Part shown: piece after piece, positions 45,410 through 53,098 of the stretch
Layout: the number at the start of each line of letters is the position of its first letter
Numbering within the stretch: position 1 is the stretch's first letter
Source: Asanoa sp. WMMD1127
GTDB lineage: Bacteria; Actinomycetota; Actinomycetes; Mycobacteriales; Micromonosporaceae
Assembly (NCBI RefSeq): GCF_029626225.1
Contig: NZ_JARUBP010000001.1
Coordinates: 7,502,001 to 7,566,000, forward strand
Direction of reading: 5' to 3'
DNA length: 64,000 bases
Notes under the pieces: model-generated
Database searches by the model: none
The model's input: only the letters and a program-made list of their open reading frames with translations
Told to the model about the DNA's origin: nothing
Program-made: the position numbers and the translations under genes

Positions 45410-45430
45410 TTCCTATCAATCAAGTAGGAA
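45410..45430. promoter_or_regulatory. Sulfur-regulon operator A
   Basis: Perfect inverted repeat TTCCTA-N9-TAGGAA, 22 nt before the substrate-binding-protein start. Shares CCTA-N9-TAGG, with identical 17-bp spacing, with the sites at 50184-50200 and 52137-52153. Likely bound by the Rrf2 protein encoded in this operon. Confidence 0.65.
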
Positions 45431-45451
45431 AACAATGGATTGGATAGGGCG

Positions 45452-46519
45452 ATGCCTCTCCCCCTGCGCAGGCTCGGCAATCTGGCCGCCGTCGCGATCG
45501 TGGCCGCCGCGACGCTCGGGACCGCCGCCGCGTGCGGCGGCGACGACGCGTCCGGCGGCAGCGGCACCGCGAGCGACCCGGTCACGCTCCGCCTCGGCTA
45601 CTTCCCCAACATCACGCACGCGCCGGCGATCGTCGGCGTCGAGAAGGGCATCTTCGCCGACAAGCTCGGCACCGGCGTCACGCTCGAGACCAAGACCTTC
45701 AACGCCGGACCGGAGGCCGTCGAGGCCGTCTTCTCCGGCGCGCTCGACGCGACGTACATCGGTCCCAACCCGACGGTCAACGCGCACTCCAAGTCGAAGG
45801 GCGAGGCGGTCCGGGTGGTCTCGGGCGCCGCGTCGGGCGGCGTGGCCCTCGTGGTCAAGGCGGAGATCACGTCGGCGGAAGGACTGCGCGGCAAGAAGAT
45901 CGCGACCCCGCAGCTCGGCAACACCCAGGACGTGGCGGTGCGCTACTGGCTCAAGGAGAAGGGCCTGACCACCACCAAGGAGGGCGGCGGCGACGTCAAG
46001 ATCGTGCCGCAGGCCAACTCGCAGACGCTCGAGACGTTCCGCAGCGGCGCCATCGACGGCGCCTGGGTGCCGGAGCCGTTCGTCTCCCAGTTGGTCAACG
46101 CCGGCGGCAAGGTGCTGGTCGACGAGCGCGACCTGTGGCCCGGCGGCAAGTTCGTCATCACCAACCTGATCGTCAGCACGAAGTTCCTCGAGGCCCACCC
46201 CGAGGTGGTGCAGAAGCTGGTCGACGGCCAGGTGGCCGCCAACGACTTCGTCAACACCAAGCCCGACGAGGCGCAGCAGGCCATCTCCACCCACATCGGC
46301 AAGATCACCGGCAAGCCGCTGGACGTGAAGCTGATCAAGCAGGCCTGGACGACCCTGGAGTTCACCGACGACCCGATCGCGTCCTCGCTGAAGGCCGGCC
46401 TCGACCACGCGGTCGCCGTGGGCCTGACCGAGCCGGTCGACCTGGCCGGGCTCTACGACCTGAGCTACCTCAACACGGCGCTCAAGGCGCAGGGCCAGAC
46501 CGAGGTCCCGCTGCCGTGA
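45452..46519 (+). CDS. ssuA: Aliphatic sulfonate ABC transporter substrate-binding lipoprotein
   Basis: 355 residues with a lipoprotein signal: GTAAACGGDD, lipobox Cys about residue 29. The SsuA/TauA-like body starts VTLRLGYFPNITHAPAIVG and includes DATYIGPNPTVNAH and SGAIDGAWVPEPF. Captures sulfonates outside the membrane. ATG 45452 sits 21 nt after operator A; ribosome site weak. Its stop overlaps the ATPase GTG (GTGA). Sulfonate assignment is supported by the ssuD relic nearby. Confidence 0.88.
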   Translation: MPLPLRRLGNLAAVAIVAAATLGTAAACGGDDASGGSGTASDPVTLRLGYFPNITHAPAIVGVEKGIFADKLGTGVTLETKTFNAGPEAVEAVFSGALDATYIGPNPTVNAHSKSKGEAVRVVSGAASGGVALVVKAEITSAEGLRGKKIATPQLGNTQDVAVRYWLKEKGLTTTKEGGGDVKIVPQANSQTLETFRSGAIDGAWVPEPFVSQLVNAGGKVLVDERDLWPGGKFVITNLIVSTKFLEAHPEVVQKLVDGQVAANDFVNTKPDEAQQAISTHIGKITGKPLDVKLIKQAWTTLEFTDDPIASSLKAGLDHAVAVGLTEPVDLAGLYDLSYLNTALKAQGQTEVPLP

Positions 46520-47307
46520 CGACGACGGCCAACCCGGGGAGCGCGACCGCCGCGGTCGCGCTCTCCGGCGTGACCAAGGTGTACGGACGCGGCACGGACG
46601 CGGTGGTCGCGCTCGACCGGGTGTCCCTCGACGTGGCGCCCGGCGAGTTCGTCTGTCTCGTCGGCGCCTCCGGGTGCGGCAAGAGCACCCTGCTCAACCT
46701 CGTCGCCGGCCTCGACCGCGTCAGCGGCGGCGGGATCCAGGTCGCCGGCGACGCCCGACCCGGCCTGATGTTCCAGGAGCCGGCGCTGTTCCCGTGGCTC
46801 ACGGTCGGCGCCAACGTCGAGGTCCCGCTCAAGCTGCGCGGCCTGCCGGGCCCGGAGCGCAAGGCCCGGGTCGCCTCGCTGCTGGACACCGTCCACCTGG
46901 GCGAGTTCGCCAGACGGCGACCGCACGAGCTGTCCGGCGGCATGCGGCAGCGGGTGGCGCTGGCCCGCACGCTGGCGTTGGACACCCCGGTGCTGCTGAT
47001 GGACGAGCCGTTCGGCGCCCTCGACGCGATGACCCGCGACATCCTGCACGACGAGCTCGAACGGCTGTGGACCGCGCGCAACGCCGCCGGCCAGCCGCTG
47101 ACCGTCCTGTTCGTCACGCACAACGTACGCGAGGCGGCCCGGCTCGCCGACCGCATCGTGCTGCTCTCCAGCCGGCCCGGCCGGGTCATCTACCACACCC
47201 CGGTGGACGTGACCCGACCGCGCCGGATCGACTCCCCCGAGGTGGCGGCGGTGGCCGCCGACGTCACCGACCGGCTCCGTGCGGAGGTGGGCCGCCATGG
47301 CCACTGA
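46516..47307 (+). CDS. ssuB: Sulfonate ABC transporter ATP-binding protein
   Basis: 263 residues with Walker A LVGASGCGKST, signature LSGGMRQR, Walker B VLLMDEPFGALD and H-loop VTHNVREA. Q-loop LMFQEPALFPWLTV matches the SsuB/TauB/NrtD group. GTG 46516 overlaps the upstream stop. The 3' end overlaps the permease start by 11 nt. Energises sulfonate uptake. Confidence 0.92.
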   Translation: MTTTANPGSATAAVALSGVTKVYGRGTDAVVALDRVSLDVAPGEFVCLVGASGCGKSTLLNLVAGLDRVSGGGIQVAGDARPGLMFQEPALFPWLTVGANVEVPLKLRGLPGPERKARVASLLDTVHLGEFARRRPHELSGGMRQRVALARTLALDTPVLLMDEPFGALDAMTRDILHDELERLWTARNAAGQPLTVLFVTHNVREAARLADRIVLLSSRPGRVIYHTPVDVTRPRRIDSPEVAAVAADVTDRLRAEVGRHGH

Positions 47308-48163
47308 CCTTGCCCGCGACAACGACACCATCTCGGGCCTCGACGCGCTCGAGATCGCCAGCCAGCAGAAGGTGCCCGGCCGGGCGTCCCGCGTCTGGGC
47401 CGCGACCTGGCCCAAGCTGACCGCGCTGGCGTTGGCCCTGGCGATCTGGCAGGTCGTGGTCTGGAGCGGTTGGAAGCCGGAGTACGCGCTGCCGGGCCCC
47501 GCCACCGTCGGCTCCGACCTGTGGACCTATGTCACCAGCTCCGCCATGTGGGAGGGCCTGCTGATCACGGCCCGCCGCGCCGGCATCGGGTTCGGGGCCG
47601 CGATCGTGGTCGGACTCCTGCTCGGCCTCGGCGTGGCCCGGGTGCGCGTGCTGCGCGCGGCCCTCGGCTCGATGATCACCGCGTTGCAGACCATGCCGTC
47701 GATCGCCTGGTTCCCGCTGGCGATCCTGCTGTTCCAGCTCAGCGAGCAGGCCATCTTCTTCGTCGTGGTGCTCGGCGCCGCGCCGTCGATCGCGAACGGC
47801 GTCATCCACGGCGTCGACTACGTGCCGCCGTTGCTGCTGCGGGCGGGCCGCAACCTGGGCGCCCGTGGGCTCAACCTCTACCGGTTCGTCATCGCGCCCG
47901 CCGCGCTGCCGGCCATCGTGGCCGGGCTCAAGCAGGGCTGGGCGTTCGCGTGGCGCAGCCTGATGGCCGGCGAGCTGCTCGTGGTCATCGCCAGCACGAC
48001 ATCGGTGGGCGTGCAGCTGACGTACGCCCGCGAGCTGTCCGACGCGCCGCGGGTGATCAGCGTGATGATCGTCATCCTGCTGCTCGGCCTCGGCGTCGAC
48101 GCGCTCTTCAACCAGGCCGACCGGGCGATCCGCCGGCGCTGGGGCCTGCTGGACCGGGGGTGA
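47297..48163 (+). CDS. ssuC: Sulfonate ABC transporter permease
   Basis: 288 residues with six membrane helices, first at about 47-65. BPD_transp_1 domain; cytoplasmic coupling loop near GVDYVPPLLLRAGRNLGARGLNLYRFVIAPAALP (EAA-like motif). ATG 47297 has a GGAGG 9 nt upstream. Third gene of the operon; Rrf2 regulator follows after 6 nt. Confidence 0.92.
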   Translation: MATDLARDNDTISGLDALEIASQQKVPGRASRVWAATWPKLTALALALAIWQVVVWSGWKPEYALPGPATVGSDLWTYVTSSAMWEGLLITARRAGIGFGAAIVVGLLLGLGVARVRVLRAALGSMITALQTMPSIAWFPLAILLFQLSEQAIFFVVVLGAAPSIANGVIHGVDYVPPLLLRAGRNLGARGLNLYRFVIAPAALPAIVAGLKQGWAFAWRSLMAGELLVVIASTTSVGVQLTYARELSDAPRVISVMIVILLLGLGVDALFNQADRAIRRRWGLLDRG

Positions 48164-48169
48164 GCCGGG

Positions 48170-48640
48170 ATGCAGGTCTCGGCCCGCACCGACTACGCGC
48201 TCCGGGCGATGCTCGCGGTGGCCGACGCTCCCGGGCTCGTGACGGCGGCCGCGTTGGCCCGGGCGCAGCAGATGCCGCCCGCGTTCCTCCAGAGCATCCT
48301 CGGTGACCTGCGCCGGGCGGAGCTCCTGCACGGCCGGCGCGGCGGCGGCTACACGCTGACCCGGCCGGCGGCCGAGATCACCGTCGGCGACGTGGTGCGG
48401 GCGGTGAACGGCGCGCTGACCACGGTGCGCGGATTGCCGACGGAGACGGCCGCCTACCCGCCCGCCGCGGCCGCGCTGCGCGACGTCTGGCTGGCCGTGC
48501 ACGACCGGATCGCCGACGTGGTCGACCGGACCACGCTGGCCGACCTGCTCAGGCCGGTGCCGTCGCGCGGGCCAGCCGGGGCAGCGGGAACTCACCCACC
48601 CGGCAGGCCTCCCCGAGGCGCGGCCAGCCCGACCGGATGA
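48170..48640 (+). CDS. Rrf2 family transcriptional regulator
   Basis: 156 residues. Winged helix: VSARTDYALRAMLAVADAP at the N-terminus, then AQQMPPAFLQSILGDLRRAELL and GRRGGGYTLTRPAAEITV. No Cys at all, so no iron-sulfur cluster; this resembles CymR-type sulfur regulators rather than IscR/NsrR. ATG 48170, last gene of the transporter operon. Roughly the last 28 residues (Pro/Gly-rich) are read from DNA antisense to the ssuD relic, so the C-terminus may be artificial. Likely binds the CCTA-N9-TAGG sites. Confidence 0.9.
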   Translation: MQVSARTDYALRAMLAVADAPGLVTAAALARAQQMPPAFLQSILGDLRRAELLHGRRGGGYTLTRPAAEITVGDVVRAVNGALTTVRGLPTETAAYPPAAAALRDVWLAVHDRIADVVDRTTLADLLRPVPSRGPAGAAGTHPPGRPPRGAASPTG

Positions 48641-48900
48641 CGCCGCGCGGAGGCGCTCCTCGACCTCGGCGCAGCTGCCGACCAGCGCGGTGCCGGCGCC
48701 CGCGCGGACCAGGCCGACGCCGGCGTTCCAGGCGTGGACCGTGGTCAGCAGGCCCCGACTCCGACCTGGGTGGGATAGCCCAGCGTGCCCGCGCGGGCGG
48801 GTCGGCGCCGGCCGTCGTGGTCGGGGGCCGCACCTGCTGGCCGTCGGCGACGGGCAGAAACCAGCGGAACGCGTTGGTCCGGTCCTTTGTGGATGACGGG
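48549..48900 (-). pseudogene. ssuD: Relic of FMNH2-dependent alkanesulfonate monooxygenase
   Basis: Three pieces of SsuD survive in order on this strand: an N-terminal piece TNAFRWFLPVADGQQ (about 48880-48790), a near-C-terminal piece NAGVGLVRAGAGTALVGS followed by CAEVEERLRA (about 48740-48655), and the end SGWPRLGEACRVGEFPLPRL (about 48640-48560) in a different frame. The normal gene is about 380 codons; roughly 250 codons of the middle are missing. No start codon remains. It cannot make a working enzyme. Confidence 0.82.
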
Positions 48901-48933: not shown

Positions 48934-50070
48934 TCAGACGGTGAAGTCGGCGAACAGCAGGGCGGCCAGGGCGAGCGCCAGGCCGATGTTGACGACGGTG
49001 GCGCTGGCGAACACCGTGATCGGCCGCCAGCCGGCCTCGCGCAGCGCGGTGAGCCGGAACTCGAGGCCGATGCTGACGAACGCGAGGATCAGGAACCACG
49101 TGCGGAAGTTCGTCGCCACGGCCTGGGCGGCGGTGTTGTCGGCGGCGCTGACCGTGTTGGCGAACCACGTGCCCAGCACCGACGCGGCCACGAAACCGAG
49201 CACGAACTTCGGGAAGCGCCGCCACAGCTCGCCGGCGCCGGGGCGGGCGGAGTCGGCCGTACGCTCGACCTTGAAGGCGAACCACGCGGTCAGCGCGACG
49301 GCGACGATGCCGATCAGCGCGTTCTGGGTGACCTTGACGATCGTCGCGATCTTCAGCGCGTCCTCGCCCGCTAGCGTGCCGGCGGCGGTGACGGCCGCGG
49401 TGGTGTCGATGTTGCCGCCGATCCAGGCGCCAGCCACCGCGTCGGAGAGCCCGAAGACGCCGGCGAGCCACGGCAGCAGGAAGATCGACGGAAGCGCGAA
49501 GACGATGACCAGGCTCGCCGCGTACGCCAGTTGTTCGCGCTTGGCCCGCACCGCGCCGGCGGCGGCGATCGCGGCGCTGACACCGCAGATCGAGACCGCC
49601 GAGGCGAGCAGCGCCCGCAGCTTGTCGTCGAGGCCCAGCCGGCCGCCGAGCCACCAGGTGAACAGGAAGACGCCCGAGATCAGCAGCAGCGCCTGGACGA
49701 TCGCGGGGCCGGCCGCGGTGACCAGCAGCGAGAGGTTGATCGAGACGCCGAGCAGGACGAGCCCGGTCTTGATGAAGAACTCGGTGCGGAAGGCCGGCGC
49801 GACCCGGTCGCGCACCCCGGTGGCGGTGATGAGCGCGTTGCCCAGCAGGCCGATCACGATGGCGTAGACCGGGTACTCGACGGACTTGGCGACCCGGCTC
49901 AGGCTCGTGTCGGCGAGCCAGCCCGGGACGTTCTTGTCCAGATATTTGGTCAACCAGGCCAGCGTGAGCACCAGCACGAGGCCGGCCCCCACCCAGGCCC
50001 AGTCGACCTTCCGCTCCTCCGTCTCGGCCGGGACGCCGGCCAGCGCCTCGGTCTCGTTGACGGTGGTCAC
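48934..50070 (-). CDS. YeiH-type putative sulfate exporter
   Basis: 378 residues, about 10-11 membrane helices, PF03601-type. Landmarks are NVPGWLADTSLSRVAKSVEYPVYAIVIGLLGN near the start and AGAWIGGNIDTTAAVTAAG in the middle. GTG at 50070 overlaps the preceding 32-residue gene stop by 4 nt. An export function for sulfate or a related anion is assigned from annotation usage, not experiment. It shares an operator-like site with the sulfonate importer. Confidence 0.88.
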   Translation of the reverse strand: MTTVNETEALAGVPAETEERKVDWAWVGAGLVLVLTLAWLTKYLDKNVPGWLADTSLSRVAKSVEYPVYAIVIGLLGNALITATGVRDRVAPAFRTEFFIKTGLVLLGVSINLSLLVTAAGPAIVQALLLISGVFLFTWWLGGRLGLDDKLRALLASAVSICGVSAAIAAAGAVRAKREQLAYAASLVIVFALPSIFLLPWLAGVFGLSDAVAGAWIGGNIDTTAAVTAAGTLAGEDALKIATIVKVTQNALIGIVAVALTAWFAFKVERTADSARPGAGELWRRFPKFVLGFVAASVLGTWFANTVSAADNTAAQAVATNFRTWFLILAFVSIGLEFRLTALREAGWRPITVFASATVVNIGLALALAALLFADFTV

Positions 50071-50179: not shown

Positions 50180-50204
50180 TTAACCTATCGGATTGATAGG
50201 TTAA
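50180..50204. promoter_or_regulatory. Sulfur-regulon operator B
   Basis: Perfect 10-bp arms TTAACCTATC and GATAGGTTAA around a 5-nt centre, the strongest palindrome of the three CCTA-N9-TAGG sites. It sits 15 nt upstream of the small membrane protein start. Confidence 0.75.
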
Positions 50205-50840: not shown

Positions 50841-52115
50841 TCAGGCCGCGTGGGTGGCGGGTGGGTCGGCGAGGCGGGCCGCGACGGCGTACGCCTGGGT
50901 GCGGATCTCCGGAATGGCCGTTGTCTCCCACCAGCGGCCTCGGCGGAGGCTGCCCAGCACGTGCAGGCCCTCGACCGGACTGCCGTCGCGGCCGGTCGGG
51001 TGGCCCGCCGCGTCGACGTCGATGCCCAGCCCGAGCGGGTCCGCGCGGGCCAGCCCGTCGGCGACCAGGGTGCGGACCAGGGACAGGCCGGCCGGGTGGC
51101 CCGGACCCGTGCAGTTGACGACCGCGTCGAAAGGCCAGGGCCCCGAGTCGCCGACGGTCACCTCGAAGCCGCGTGGCACGGTGCGGATGTCGGTCACCCG
51201 GCCCGCGGCGACGACCAGCGCGCCCGACGAGCGCGCCGCCGCGATCGTGGCCGCCACCGGCGGGGCGCAGCGGTGCCGGTGCACCTCCCACCAACGGGCC
51301 AGGTGGCGCAGGAAGCGGCGTCGCTCCTCGTCGGTCAGGCCGGCCCAGACCTCGTCGACCCGCGGCCGCAGCGCGTCGACGGTGGCCCGCCAGTCGGTGC
51401 TGCGGCGCAGTTCGCGCAGCAGCGCGCGCAGCCCCGGCGGAAGGTCGGCCGACAGCGCCACCGGGGCCGCCTGATCGGTGTGCGCCCGGGGCAGCAGCCC
51501 GTGGCGGGAGACCGCGACGATCCGGCCCGTGTGGCCGCGGGCGAGCAGGGTGAGCACCGCGTCGACCGCGGTCAGGCCGGTGCCGAGCAGCAGGACGCGG
51601 TCCGGTGCGGCGATCCGGTCGAGGGCGCCGGGCGTCCAGGGCAACGGCACGTAGCCGGGCGCCCGACGCACGCCGACCGCGGCCGCGGCCGGGAAGACCG
51701 GCGGGGGTGGGCCGAGCGCCAGCACCACGTCGGAGGCCCGCCGGGTGGTGCCGTCGCTCAGCTCGACCGCCCAGCGCCCCGCCCCCGCCGGCCGCACCCG
51801 CAGCGCACGCCGGGCGATGTGCGGCACCGCACCGAGCCGCTGCGCCAGATAGTCGCCGTAGCCGCCGCGTGGCTGGAACGAGTCGCCGCTACATCGGGCC
51901 CAGGCGGCGAAGTCGCCGGGCGCGCAGGGGTCGACCGACATCGAACCCGCGCGGGAGTTGAGCAGGTGGCTCGGCTCGCGGGTGGCATAGGCTGAGCCCG
52001 GCCCCAGCGCGGCGGCGGGGTCGACGACGACCACCGGGCGTCCACTGTGCCGGCTGACGGCGATCGCCGCCAGGGCTCCGGCCGGACCACCGCCGATGAC
52101 GATCACTGGCTCCAT
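50841..52115 (-). CDS. FAD/NAD(P)-binding protein
   Basis: 424 residues. N-terminal FAD site PVIVIGGGPAGALAAIAV, a second dinucleotide motif VLLLGTGLTAVDAVLTLLARG (about 178-198) and the AVVNCTGPG segment. Resembles FAD_NAD_binding_9 proteins (HI0933/SidA-like), oxidoreductases of unknown substrate. ATG 52115. Divergent from the SBP56 relic with operator C between them, so it probably belongs to the same sulfur-responsive set. Confidence 0.82.
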   Translation of the reverse strand: MEPVIVIGGGPAGALAAIAVSRHSGRPVVVVDPAAALGPGSAYATREPSHLLNSRAGSMSVDPCAPGDFAAWARCSGDSFQPRGGYGDYLAQRLGAVPHIARRALRVRPAGAGRWAVELSDGTTRRASDVVLALGPPPPVFPAAAAVGVRRAPGYVPLPWTPGALDRIAAPDRVLLLGTGLTAVDAVLTLLARGHTGRIVAVSRHGLLPRAHTDQAAPVALSADLPPGLRALLRELRRSTDWRATVDALRPRVDEVWAGLTDEERRRFLRHLARWWEVHRHRCAPPVAATIAAARSSGALVVAAGRVTDIRTVPRGFEVTVGDSGPWPFDAVVNCTGPGHPAGLSLVRTLVADGLARADPLGLGIDVDAAGHPTGRDGSPVEGLHVLGSLRRGRWWETTAIPEIRTQAYAVAARLADPPATHAA

Positions 52116-52136: not shown

Positions 52137-52153
52137 CCTATAGACATAGTAGG
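52137..52153. promoter_or_regulatory. Sulfur-regulon operator C
   Basis: CCTATAGACATAGTAGG, the third CCTA-N9-TAGG site, in the divergent promoter between the FAD protein and the SBP56 relic. Arms are shorter than in sites A and B, but the 17-bp spacing is identical. Confidence 0.6.
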
Positions 52154-52185: not shown

Positions 52186-53098
52186 ATGCCGTTGTGGAAG
52201 CCCGACCCGACCTTCTACCCCTCGCCGCGCCAGGCGGTCGGCGCGCCGGCCGAAAAGCTGGCCTACGTCGCCGCGTTCGACCGGTCCGCCGAGAAGCCCG
52301 ACGCCATCGCGGTGCTCGACGTCGACGAGACGTCCGACAGCTACGGCCGCGTCGTCGGCTGGACCGATCTGCCCTACAAGGGCGACGAGCTGCACCACTT
52401 CGGCTGGAACGCCTGCAGCAGCGCGCTCTGCCCCTCGTCGCCGCACCCGCACGTCGAGCGCCGCTACCTGATCGTGCCCGGGCTGCGCTCGTCGCGGATC
52501 TACGTGCTCGACACCAAGGACGACCCGCGTGCGCCCAGCATCGTGCGCACCATCGAGCCCGCCGAGCTGGCCAGGGCCGGCTACTCCCGGCCGCACACCG
52601 TGCACTGCGGCCCCGAGGGCATCTACGTCTCCAACCTCGGCGGCGCCGACGGCGCGGAGGCTCGATGATCGAGGACGGGCTGGTCGGCGAGCTGCTGCTC
52701 GGCCGGAAGTACGGCCACGCGATCCACTTCTTCGACCTGCGCAAGCGCCGCCACCTGCAGACCCTCGACCTCGGCGACCAGCACCAGATGGCGCTCGAGC
52801 TGCGCCCGGCCCACGACCCGACGATGGAATACGGCTTCGTCGGCGGCAGATGGTCGAGGTGTCCCGCGACGGTCGCCGGGTCTACGTCACCAACTCGCTC
52901 TACGGCGCGTGGGACGACCAGTTCTTCCCCGACGGCGTGGGCGCCTGGGCCGCCCGCCTCGACGTCGATCTCGACAACGGCGGCATCACGCCCGATCCCC
53001 GGTTCTTCCCGCACGGCGACGACTTCCGCGGGTTGCGCGTGCACCAGACGAGGCTGCAGGGCGGAGACGCCTCGTCGGACTCATACTGCTTCCCGTGA
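52186..53098 (+). pseudogene. Selenium-binding protein/methanethiol oxidase (SBP56), internally deleted
   Basis: Normal SBP56 is about 460 residues; it oxidises methanethiol. Here the N-terminal part (KPDPTFYPSPRQAV, CSSALCPSSPHPHVERRYL) is intact to GGADGAEA, where a stop follows. A +1-frame piece then resumes with MIEDGLVGELLLGRKYGH, HLQTLDLGDQHQMALELRPAH, and after a further junction (GFVGG to QMVEVSRDGRRVYVTNSLYG) the true C-terminus GGDASSDSYCFP appears. Two internal segments (about 45 and 130 codons) are missing. ATG 52186 follows operator C. Confidence 0.85.

Follow-up and report, generated by a model that had tools for sequence, protein, structure and literature searches.

SsuD is a two-component, FMNH2-dependent alkanesulfonate monooxygenase that converts sulfonates to sulfite, freeing their sulfur, and CymR is an Rrf2-family repressor of cysteine metabolism. 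In Streptomyces coelicolor, according to passages of one report, ssuCBA and cysN are consecutive genes (SCO6094 to SCO6097) in a run, SCO6094 to SCO6100, made up of ssuCBA and cysN-cysD-cysC-cysH; these passages call the importer a sulfonate transporter and describe the sulfate permease of Streptomyces as unknown (PMC4991794). Passages of a second report state that SCO6094 to SCO6096 take part in sulfate import (PMC11356490), and a third report states that YeiH protects Salmonella against sulfite (PMC12880088).

We analyzed an ssuABC locus in a 64,000-nucleotide stretch of the genome of Asanoa sp. WMMD1127 (the window; genome G000) and compared it with the same locus in five further Asanoa genomes (G001 to G005, for a set of six). 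The pseudogene found there is by itself ordinary; the useful residue is an orphan importer and a candidate operator. Our best explanation, to which we give a probability of roughly 55%, is that ssuD is dead and that the importer has been kept for a use independent of SsuD, with sulfate as the likeliest substrate.

An intact importer beside a dead ssuD

The earlier note on this DNA described ssuABC as an intact operon, and its open reading frames, its family matches (Table 1), and pairwise dN/dS values of 0.17 to 0.37 against congeners bear this out. The binding protein scores over the curated TIGR01728 cutoff for the SsuA family, its NCBIfam name is sulfonate-binding, and an in-frame ATG at 45452 is an alternative possible start of ssuA. 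Among the 25 best-listed NCBIfam models, none matched the ATPase over its cutoff, and the SaoP and SsuC models matched the permease below theirs.

Table 1. Features of the ssuABC locus, in window coordinates
Feature	Coordinates	Strand	Basis or remark
Candidate operator CCTA-N9-TAGG	45412..45428		Upstream of ssuA
ssuA-like binding protein	45440..46519	+	TIGR01728, 177 bits (cutoff, 163.5)
ssuB-like ATPase	46516..47307	+	ABC_tran
ssuC-like permease	47279..48163	+	PF00528
Rrf2-family regulator	48170..48640	+	PF02082, 98.1 bits; TIGR00738, 92.1 bits; both over cutoff
ssuD pseudogene	48549..48900	-	Start lost; ~760 of 1,092 nt deleted; pieces in three frames
Intact YeiH-family membrane protein (putative exporter of sulfite/sulfate)	48934..50070	-	PF03601, 172.2 bits
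Candidate operator CCTA-N9-TAGG	50184..50200		Upstream of YeiH
FAD/NAD(P)-binding protein	50841..52115	-	PF13454
Candidate operator CCTA-N9-TAGG	52137..52153		Between divergent FAD and SBP56 genes
SBP56 pseudogene (selenium-binding protein/methanethiol-oxidase-like)	52186..53098	+	PF05694, 209.5 bits for 5' part

A whole-genome profile search with TIGR03565 (SsuD) aligned profile positions 276 to 314 with 48647 to 48766 on the minus strand (E = 5.8e-6). For the tblastn check that the earlier note had proposed, the query was the intact ssuD that congener G003 carries at this locus (363 codons), and it recovered the remnant: SsuD residues 3 to 27 match 48798 to 48869 (E = 1.6e-8), and residues 273 to 319 and 330 to 360 match 48647 to 48793 and 48555 to 48638, respectively (E = 3.2e-16 for the pair). 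A weak, out-of-frame SsuD piece also lies inside 48751 to 48843 (E = 7e-4). The pieces stand in the same order as in intact SsuD. Nucleotide alignment to the congener ssuD revealed one long and three short deletions and no start codon at the aligned position, and reading the three minus-strand frames exposed a stop codon within the frame of one piece. From the aligned start (48875) to the aligned stop (48549), about 327 of the 1,092 nucleotides of ssuD are left, and no complete SsuD reading frame is present. The description in the earlier note of a decayed ssuD in three colinear pieces, with frame changes and about 250 codons missing, was therefore right, and 48549 to 48900 is a dead ssuD.

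Decay of ssuD and constraint on its neighbors

Changes unique to the window genome were counted by codon position against the congeners. In the ssuD remnant outside its overlap with rrf2, first, second, and third positions carried 5, 5, and 4 such changes in one part (102 aligned sites) and 9, 14, and 6 in the other (133 aligned sites), the alignment next to the long deletion being uncertain and some of the changes there possibly misplaced. The corresponding counts were 4/1/13 in ssuA (12 synonymous and 4 nonsynonymous), 1/1/14 in ssuB (14 and 1), 5/4/13 in ssuC (10 and 7), 2/3/12 in the first 132 codons of rrf2 (10 and 4), and 2/0/23 in yeiH (21 synonymous and 2 nonsynonymous codon changes). 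Pairwise dN/dS against congeners was 0.10 to 0.12 for those 132 codons of rrf2 and 0.09 to 0.12 for yeiH. The ssuD remnant decays neutrally; ssuABC, rrf2, and yeiH are undamaged and under constraint. That 48549 to 48900 belongs to some live short gene besides rrf2 was considered and rejected, as the nonoverlapping parts show no third-position bias.

These counts bear on two other accounts of the locus. One is that the broken ssuD reflects an assembly or sequencing error, and the window genome does carry two genes with internal deletions within 5 kb of each other. We nevertheless consider this highly improbable, given the many substitutions without third-position bias in the remnant, the intact neighbors, and the ssuD remnants that also occur in three Micromonospora species. 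Since such substitutions are found besides the deletions, resequencing is unlikely to restore ssuD. The other is that the importer is itself in early decay, ssuD having gone first and ssuABC being a relic that is still unbroken. Congener G001 has lost ssuABC-rrf2, and the adjoining SBP56 gene of the window is broken too, as this account would have it; however, the synonymous excess among the window-unique changes of ssuA, ssuB, ssuC, and rrf2, the identity of a 24-base site 5' of ssuA in four of five Asanoa loci, and the retention of the importer in genomes without SsuD make it an improbable one.

The end of ssuD is also the end of rrf2

The Rrf2-family regulator, assigned by PF02082 and TIGR00738, has no cysteines in its translation. 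Its gene is convergent with ssuD, and its 3' end covers the last ~92 bp of 48549 to 48900; although the interval is a dead ssuD, as the earlier note had it, 48549 to 48640 is also the live 3' end of rrf2. The intact ssuD genes of G003 and G005 are likewise overlapped by an Rrf2 gene, by ~100 bp. The 3' piece of ssuD survives because it is also the 3' coding end of a live rrf2. In the shared stretch (81 aligned sites), where the counts are small, all five window-unique changes fall at Rrf2 third positions, which are ssuD second positions, and of the six changes unique to one of the three ssuD-bearing congeners, five fall at ssuD third positions and one at a first position.

In G001, ssuABC and rrf2 are lost, yet the last 30 Rrf2 codons are kept at 90% identity because this tail lies within the intact ssuD of that genome. 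The G001 stretch (L059, 9600 to 11100), with ssuD present, the Rrf2 tail inside it, and ssuABC-rrf2 lost, is a mirror image of the window. The Rrf2 protein of G004 is without this 3' tail, which is therefore not indispensable.

The locus in six Asanoa genomes

The common Asanoa layout has ssuABC-rrf2 convergent to yeiH-ssuD. At this locus, ssuD is gone from three of the six genomes, all of which have ssuABC-rrf2: G000, with its remnant; G002, where YeiH is also gone; and G004, where YeiH is broken. G003 and G005 have ssuABC-rrf2 and an intact ssuD. G001 has kept ssuD and is without ssuABC-rrf2, so the importer is not essential. Genome-wide SsuD counts (E up to 1e-40) were 0 in G000, 2 in G001, 0 in G002, 1 in G003, 1 in G004 (elsewhere in the genome), and 1 in G005. 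A search for ssuD remnants in G002 and G004 gave nothing convincing, the one 29-base match being at the end of rrf2. In an unrooted tree built from three flanking genes, G004 groups with G001 and G002 with G005, each pair having 100% support. Thus, two of the three genomes that lack ssuD here have a sister that bears it, and if ssuD was ancestral at the locus, its distribution is most simply explained by three separate losses. Between YeiH and the ssuD position, G004 and G005 carry a homologous pair of genes, sigma-factor-like as judged by eye (L063, 11104 to 12607, and L061, 7113 to 8600), that is absent from the window.

SBP56 is the second dead gene of the cluster. The window copy misses 145 and 349 nucleotides that are present in four congeners, and G003 has no SBP56 match at the locus. 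As both ssuD and SBP56 are dead, the cluster is losing its organosulfur side in this strain, while the importer, the regulator, YeiH, and the FAD gene remain. YeiH may vent sulfite, since yeiH lies directly 5' of ssuD in G003 and YeiH has its sulfite role in Salmonella.

A candidate operator before the sulfur genes

The window contains three copies of the palindrome CCTA-N9-TAGG, against 0.095 copies per 64 kb predicted by a first-order Markov model, and these copies stand only before sulfur-related genes (Table 1). None of 200 simulations gave at least 6 A/T among the 8 flanking positions; the three window copies have 7, 8, and 8. There was no copy in other parts of the genome totaling ~133 kb, some of which overlap, and the core was present in 0 of 17 control loci of the same genome. 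Alignment of the region 5' of ssuA from 5 Asanoa and 14 Micromonospora loci revealed conservation around TTCCTAnCAAnnnnnTAGGAA, and the box was found 5' of ssuA in all 5 Asanoa loci with ssuA and in all 23 Micromonospora loci.

The box also recurs at other genes of the cluster. Among the Asanoa genomes, it stands before ssuD in G001 and G005, before YeiH in G001, G003, and G005, and at the FAD/SBP56 pair in G001, G002, G004, and G005; G003 has neither SBP56 nor that box. In Micromonospora, each of the 10 loci whose ssuD is intact or frameshifted has a box 21 to 83 bp 5' of the matched ssuD start. At nine of these it lies in the intergenic region common to ssuD and ssuA and therefore could serve ssuA as well; at the other locus, L087, it stands before ssuD alone. 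The corresponding place has a box in two of three Micromonospora remnant loci and in one of 10 loci without ssuD.

Farther afield the box becomes rare. Of 51 loci (L098 to L149, minus L143), 1 has it within 3 kb of ssuA, and it is absent near ssuA in Planosporangium mesophilum (L097) and in two Actinoplanes loci (L135 and L141), both of which have a close Rrf2 (67 to 68% identity). In the stretches examined from an SsuD family search (L009 to L038), the core was present at 8 of 30 loci, two of which (L029 and L031) are the Asanoa locus itself, and absent from 22. In most Asanoa and Micromonospora loci the box is accompanied by an adjacent Rrf2 gene, but Micromonospora L072, L082, and L096 have the box with no Rrf2 match in the stretch examined.

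We regard CCTA-N9-TAGG as a candidate sulfur operator and as a handle for mapping a regulon. Because rrf2 ends the importer operon, its product is the obvious candidate to bind the palindrome, a suggestion drawn from position and conservation and tempered by the Micromonospora and Actinoplanes loci in which box and Rrf2 do not go together. No box was found at the cysDN or cysH stretches of the window genome; the importer is therefore not visibly coregulated with sulfate reduction, which weakens the sulfate reading, and its operator-mates are organosulfur genes. Tentatively, and with well under even confidence, we suggest a Micromonosporaceae sulfur regulon in which a cysteine-free Rrf2 repressor and CCTA-N9-TAGG would govern chiefly a sulfate or broad oxyanion SsuABC, with SsuD, YeiH, and the FAD/SBP56 pair as independent, exchangeable clients. 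Such a regulon would be undescribed; among the papers listed by our literature searches, none fitted as a description of ssuABC without ssuD or of the CCTA-N9-TAGG box.

Importers without SsuD in Micromonospora and across the class

To place the locus among its relatives, we used the best 80 of 568 loci nearest in SsuA, in all of which the importer is present by construction, as they were chosen by SsuA. The 23 Micromonospora loci among them, in which ssuD stands divergent from ssuA, comprise 9 with intact ssuD, 1 with a frameshifted copy (on a draft contig), 3 with remnants (M. arborensis, M. noduli, and M. parastrephiae), and 10 with no trace, including L082, where 847 bases 5' of ssuA were available and absence was scored from zero matches in that genome. 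In Micromonospora orduensis (L083, 6110 to 7211), the ssuD frameshift lies near the 3' end and may be a draft error. A second SsuD elsewhere in the genome (53 to 59% identity) was found in 7 of the 13 Micromonospora with a remnant or no trace, all three remnant bearers included; the other six are without one, and one of these six has a 41% match over 319 residues.

On the importer tree, in which the root is unreliable and several supports are low (51 to 73), the three remnants lie among ssuD-bearing Micromonospora species. Unrestricted parsimony puts ssuD as absent at this unreliable root with six changes, versus nine with losses alone; some trace-free species may therefore never have had ssuD. 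Only the remnants establish repeated loss with certainty, and for the species without a trace gain is possible too; where no remnant is left, we infer that losses rather than gains lie behind the patchy distribution. That the same loss has seemingly happened several times in relatives points to a role for the importer in which SsuD is not needed.

We also searched a sample of the class (197 genomes). With at most 10 candidates per genome scored, so that absences may be overstated, SsuA was found in 58 genomes (E up to 1e-50) and SsuD in 59 (E up to 1e-90), and 34 of the 58 SsuA-bearing genomes have the importer without SsuD at that threshold. Because importers without ssuD are common in relatives, the loss in the window is less odd than it first appears. 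The retention of the importer without SsuD in many actinomycetes also supports, in its general form, the proposal of the earlier note that the importer serves another substrate; we infer that the substrate itself is probably sulfate. Of 20 stretches chosen by us from 65 SsuA matches, two of them from Micromonosporaceae, 6 have CysN next to the importer.

Sulfur genes elsewhere in the genome and the use of the importer

The earlier note had offered, as one option, that the host depends on another monooxygenase, and its proposed search for ssuD or sfnG elsewhere came back empty: in the window genome, neither a second SsuD (E up to 1e-40) nor an SfnG over cutoff was found. Other TIGR03565 matches in the genome reach at most ~50 bits against a cutoff of 518.2, a cutoff that intact relatives also miss, intact copies in the 61 genomes searched scoring below it. 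What this option retains is ~20 luciferase-like stretches in the genome, seven of eight inspected showing such a protein. For sulfate reduction, the genome has CysN (571.8 bits), its gene preceded immediately by a frame that on visual inspection is CysD-like, and CysH and sulfite reductase in one cluster. It has one SulP protein; a CysP-type sulfate-binding protein was sought and none was found over cutoff, one match reaching 27.6 bits.

The importer may still serve sulfonates, SsuD having been replaced by an unrecognized enzyme, for instance the FAD protein (50841 to 52115), whose use of an imported sulfonate the earlier note had suggested, or a luciferase-like monooxygenase elsewhere in the genome. 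The palindrome common to the FAD/SBP56 pair, YeiH, and ssuA, the binding protein over its SsuA-family cutoff, the luciferase-like stretches, an intact and constrained YeiH able perhaps to handle sulfite, and the finding of CysN in none of the stretches examined at the 80 named loci nearest in SsuA (best 80 of 568) are all consistent with such a replacement. However, neither SsuD nor SfnG was recovered in the genome at the thresholds given above, the FAD gene is close to ssuABC only in three Asanoa loci among these 80, and SBP56, its divergent neighbor, is dead in the window. On balance we think replacement unlikely.

We prefer the reading that the importer was kept for a use without SsuD, probably sulfate uptake. 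In its favor are the lack of a second SsuD in the searches above, the CysN, CysH, and sulfite reductase genes, the importers without ssuD in Asanoa, Micromonospora, and the class sample, CysN near the importer in 6 of the 20 chosen stretches, and the S. coelicolor gene order and import statement (PMC4991794; PMC11356490). Several observations count against it: the sulfonate name of the binding protein, the sulfonate transporter wording for S. coelicolor (PMC4991794), the 0 of 80 nearest loci with CysN, the lack of the box at cysDN and cysH, the existence of a SulP transporter, the loss of the importer in G001, the parsimony result, and the co-occurrence of SsuA and SsuD in 24 of the 197 sampled genomes (counted by hand from two lists), which is above the 17.4 expected under independence. 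Under the preferred reading, ssuD would have been inactivated and most of its body then deleted, leaving a 5' stub and a 3' stretch, the very end being kept because it codes for the end of Rrf2. Importer and regulator alike would have been kept for work that does not need SsuD, most likely the uptake of sulfur in an assimilable form, with sulfate as the probable substrate and sulfonates as further possible ones, to feed the CysDN-CysH-sulfite reductase route. SsuD, YeiH (by which sulfite or sulfate would leave the cell), and the FAD/SBP56 pair would be accessory members lost one by one.

Comparison with known systems

An ssuABC operon is easily taken as proof of sulfonate use. Here that inference is unsafe, because the importer outlives or lacks SsuD in this strain and in many relatives.

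Set against the described systems, the locus is familiar in its parts. The window pieces match the SsuD model TIGR03565 and the intact congener copies colinearly; unlike those copies, the window gene is dead. Its regulator resembles CymR in belonging to the Rrf2 family, in having no cysteines, and in sitting with sulfur genes, but it scores 65.5 bits on the CymR model NF047409, below the cutoff of 195. The window YeiH is of the same family as YeiH of Salmonella by PF03601, the family model on which the likeness is drawn, but at 80 bits falls below the TIGR00698 cutoff of 232.6. Finally, the window ssuABC has the same three kinds of subunit as SCO6094 to SCO6096 of S. coelicolor, a likeness drawn from gene content, and differs in being followed by an Rrf2 gene and in having cysDN elsewhere in the genome. 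For the Streptomyces sulfate permease that passages of the S. coelicolor report describe as unknown (PMC4991794), this importer family offers a testable candidate.
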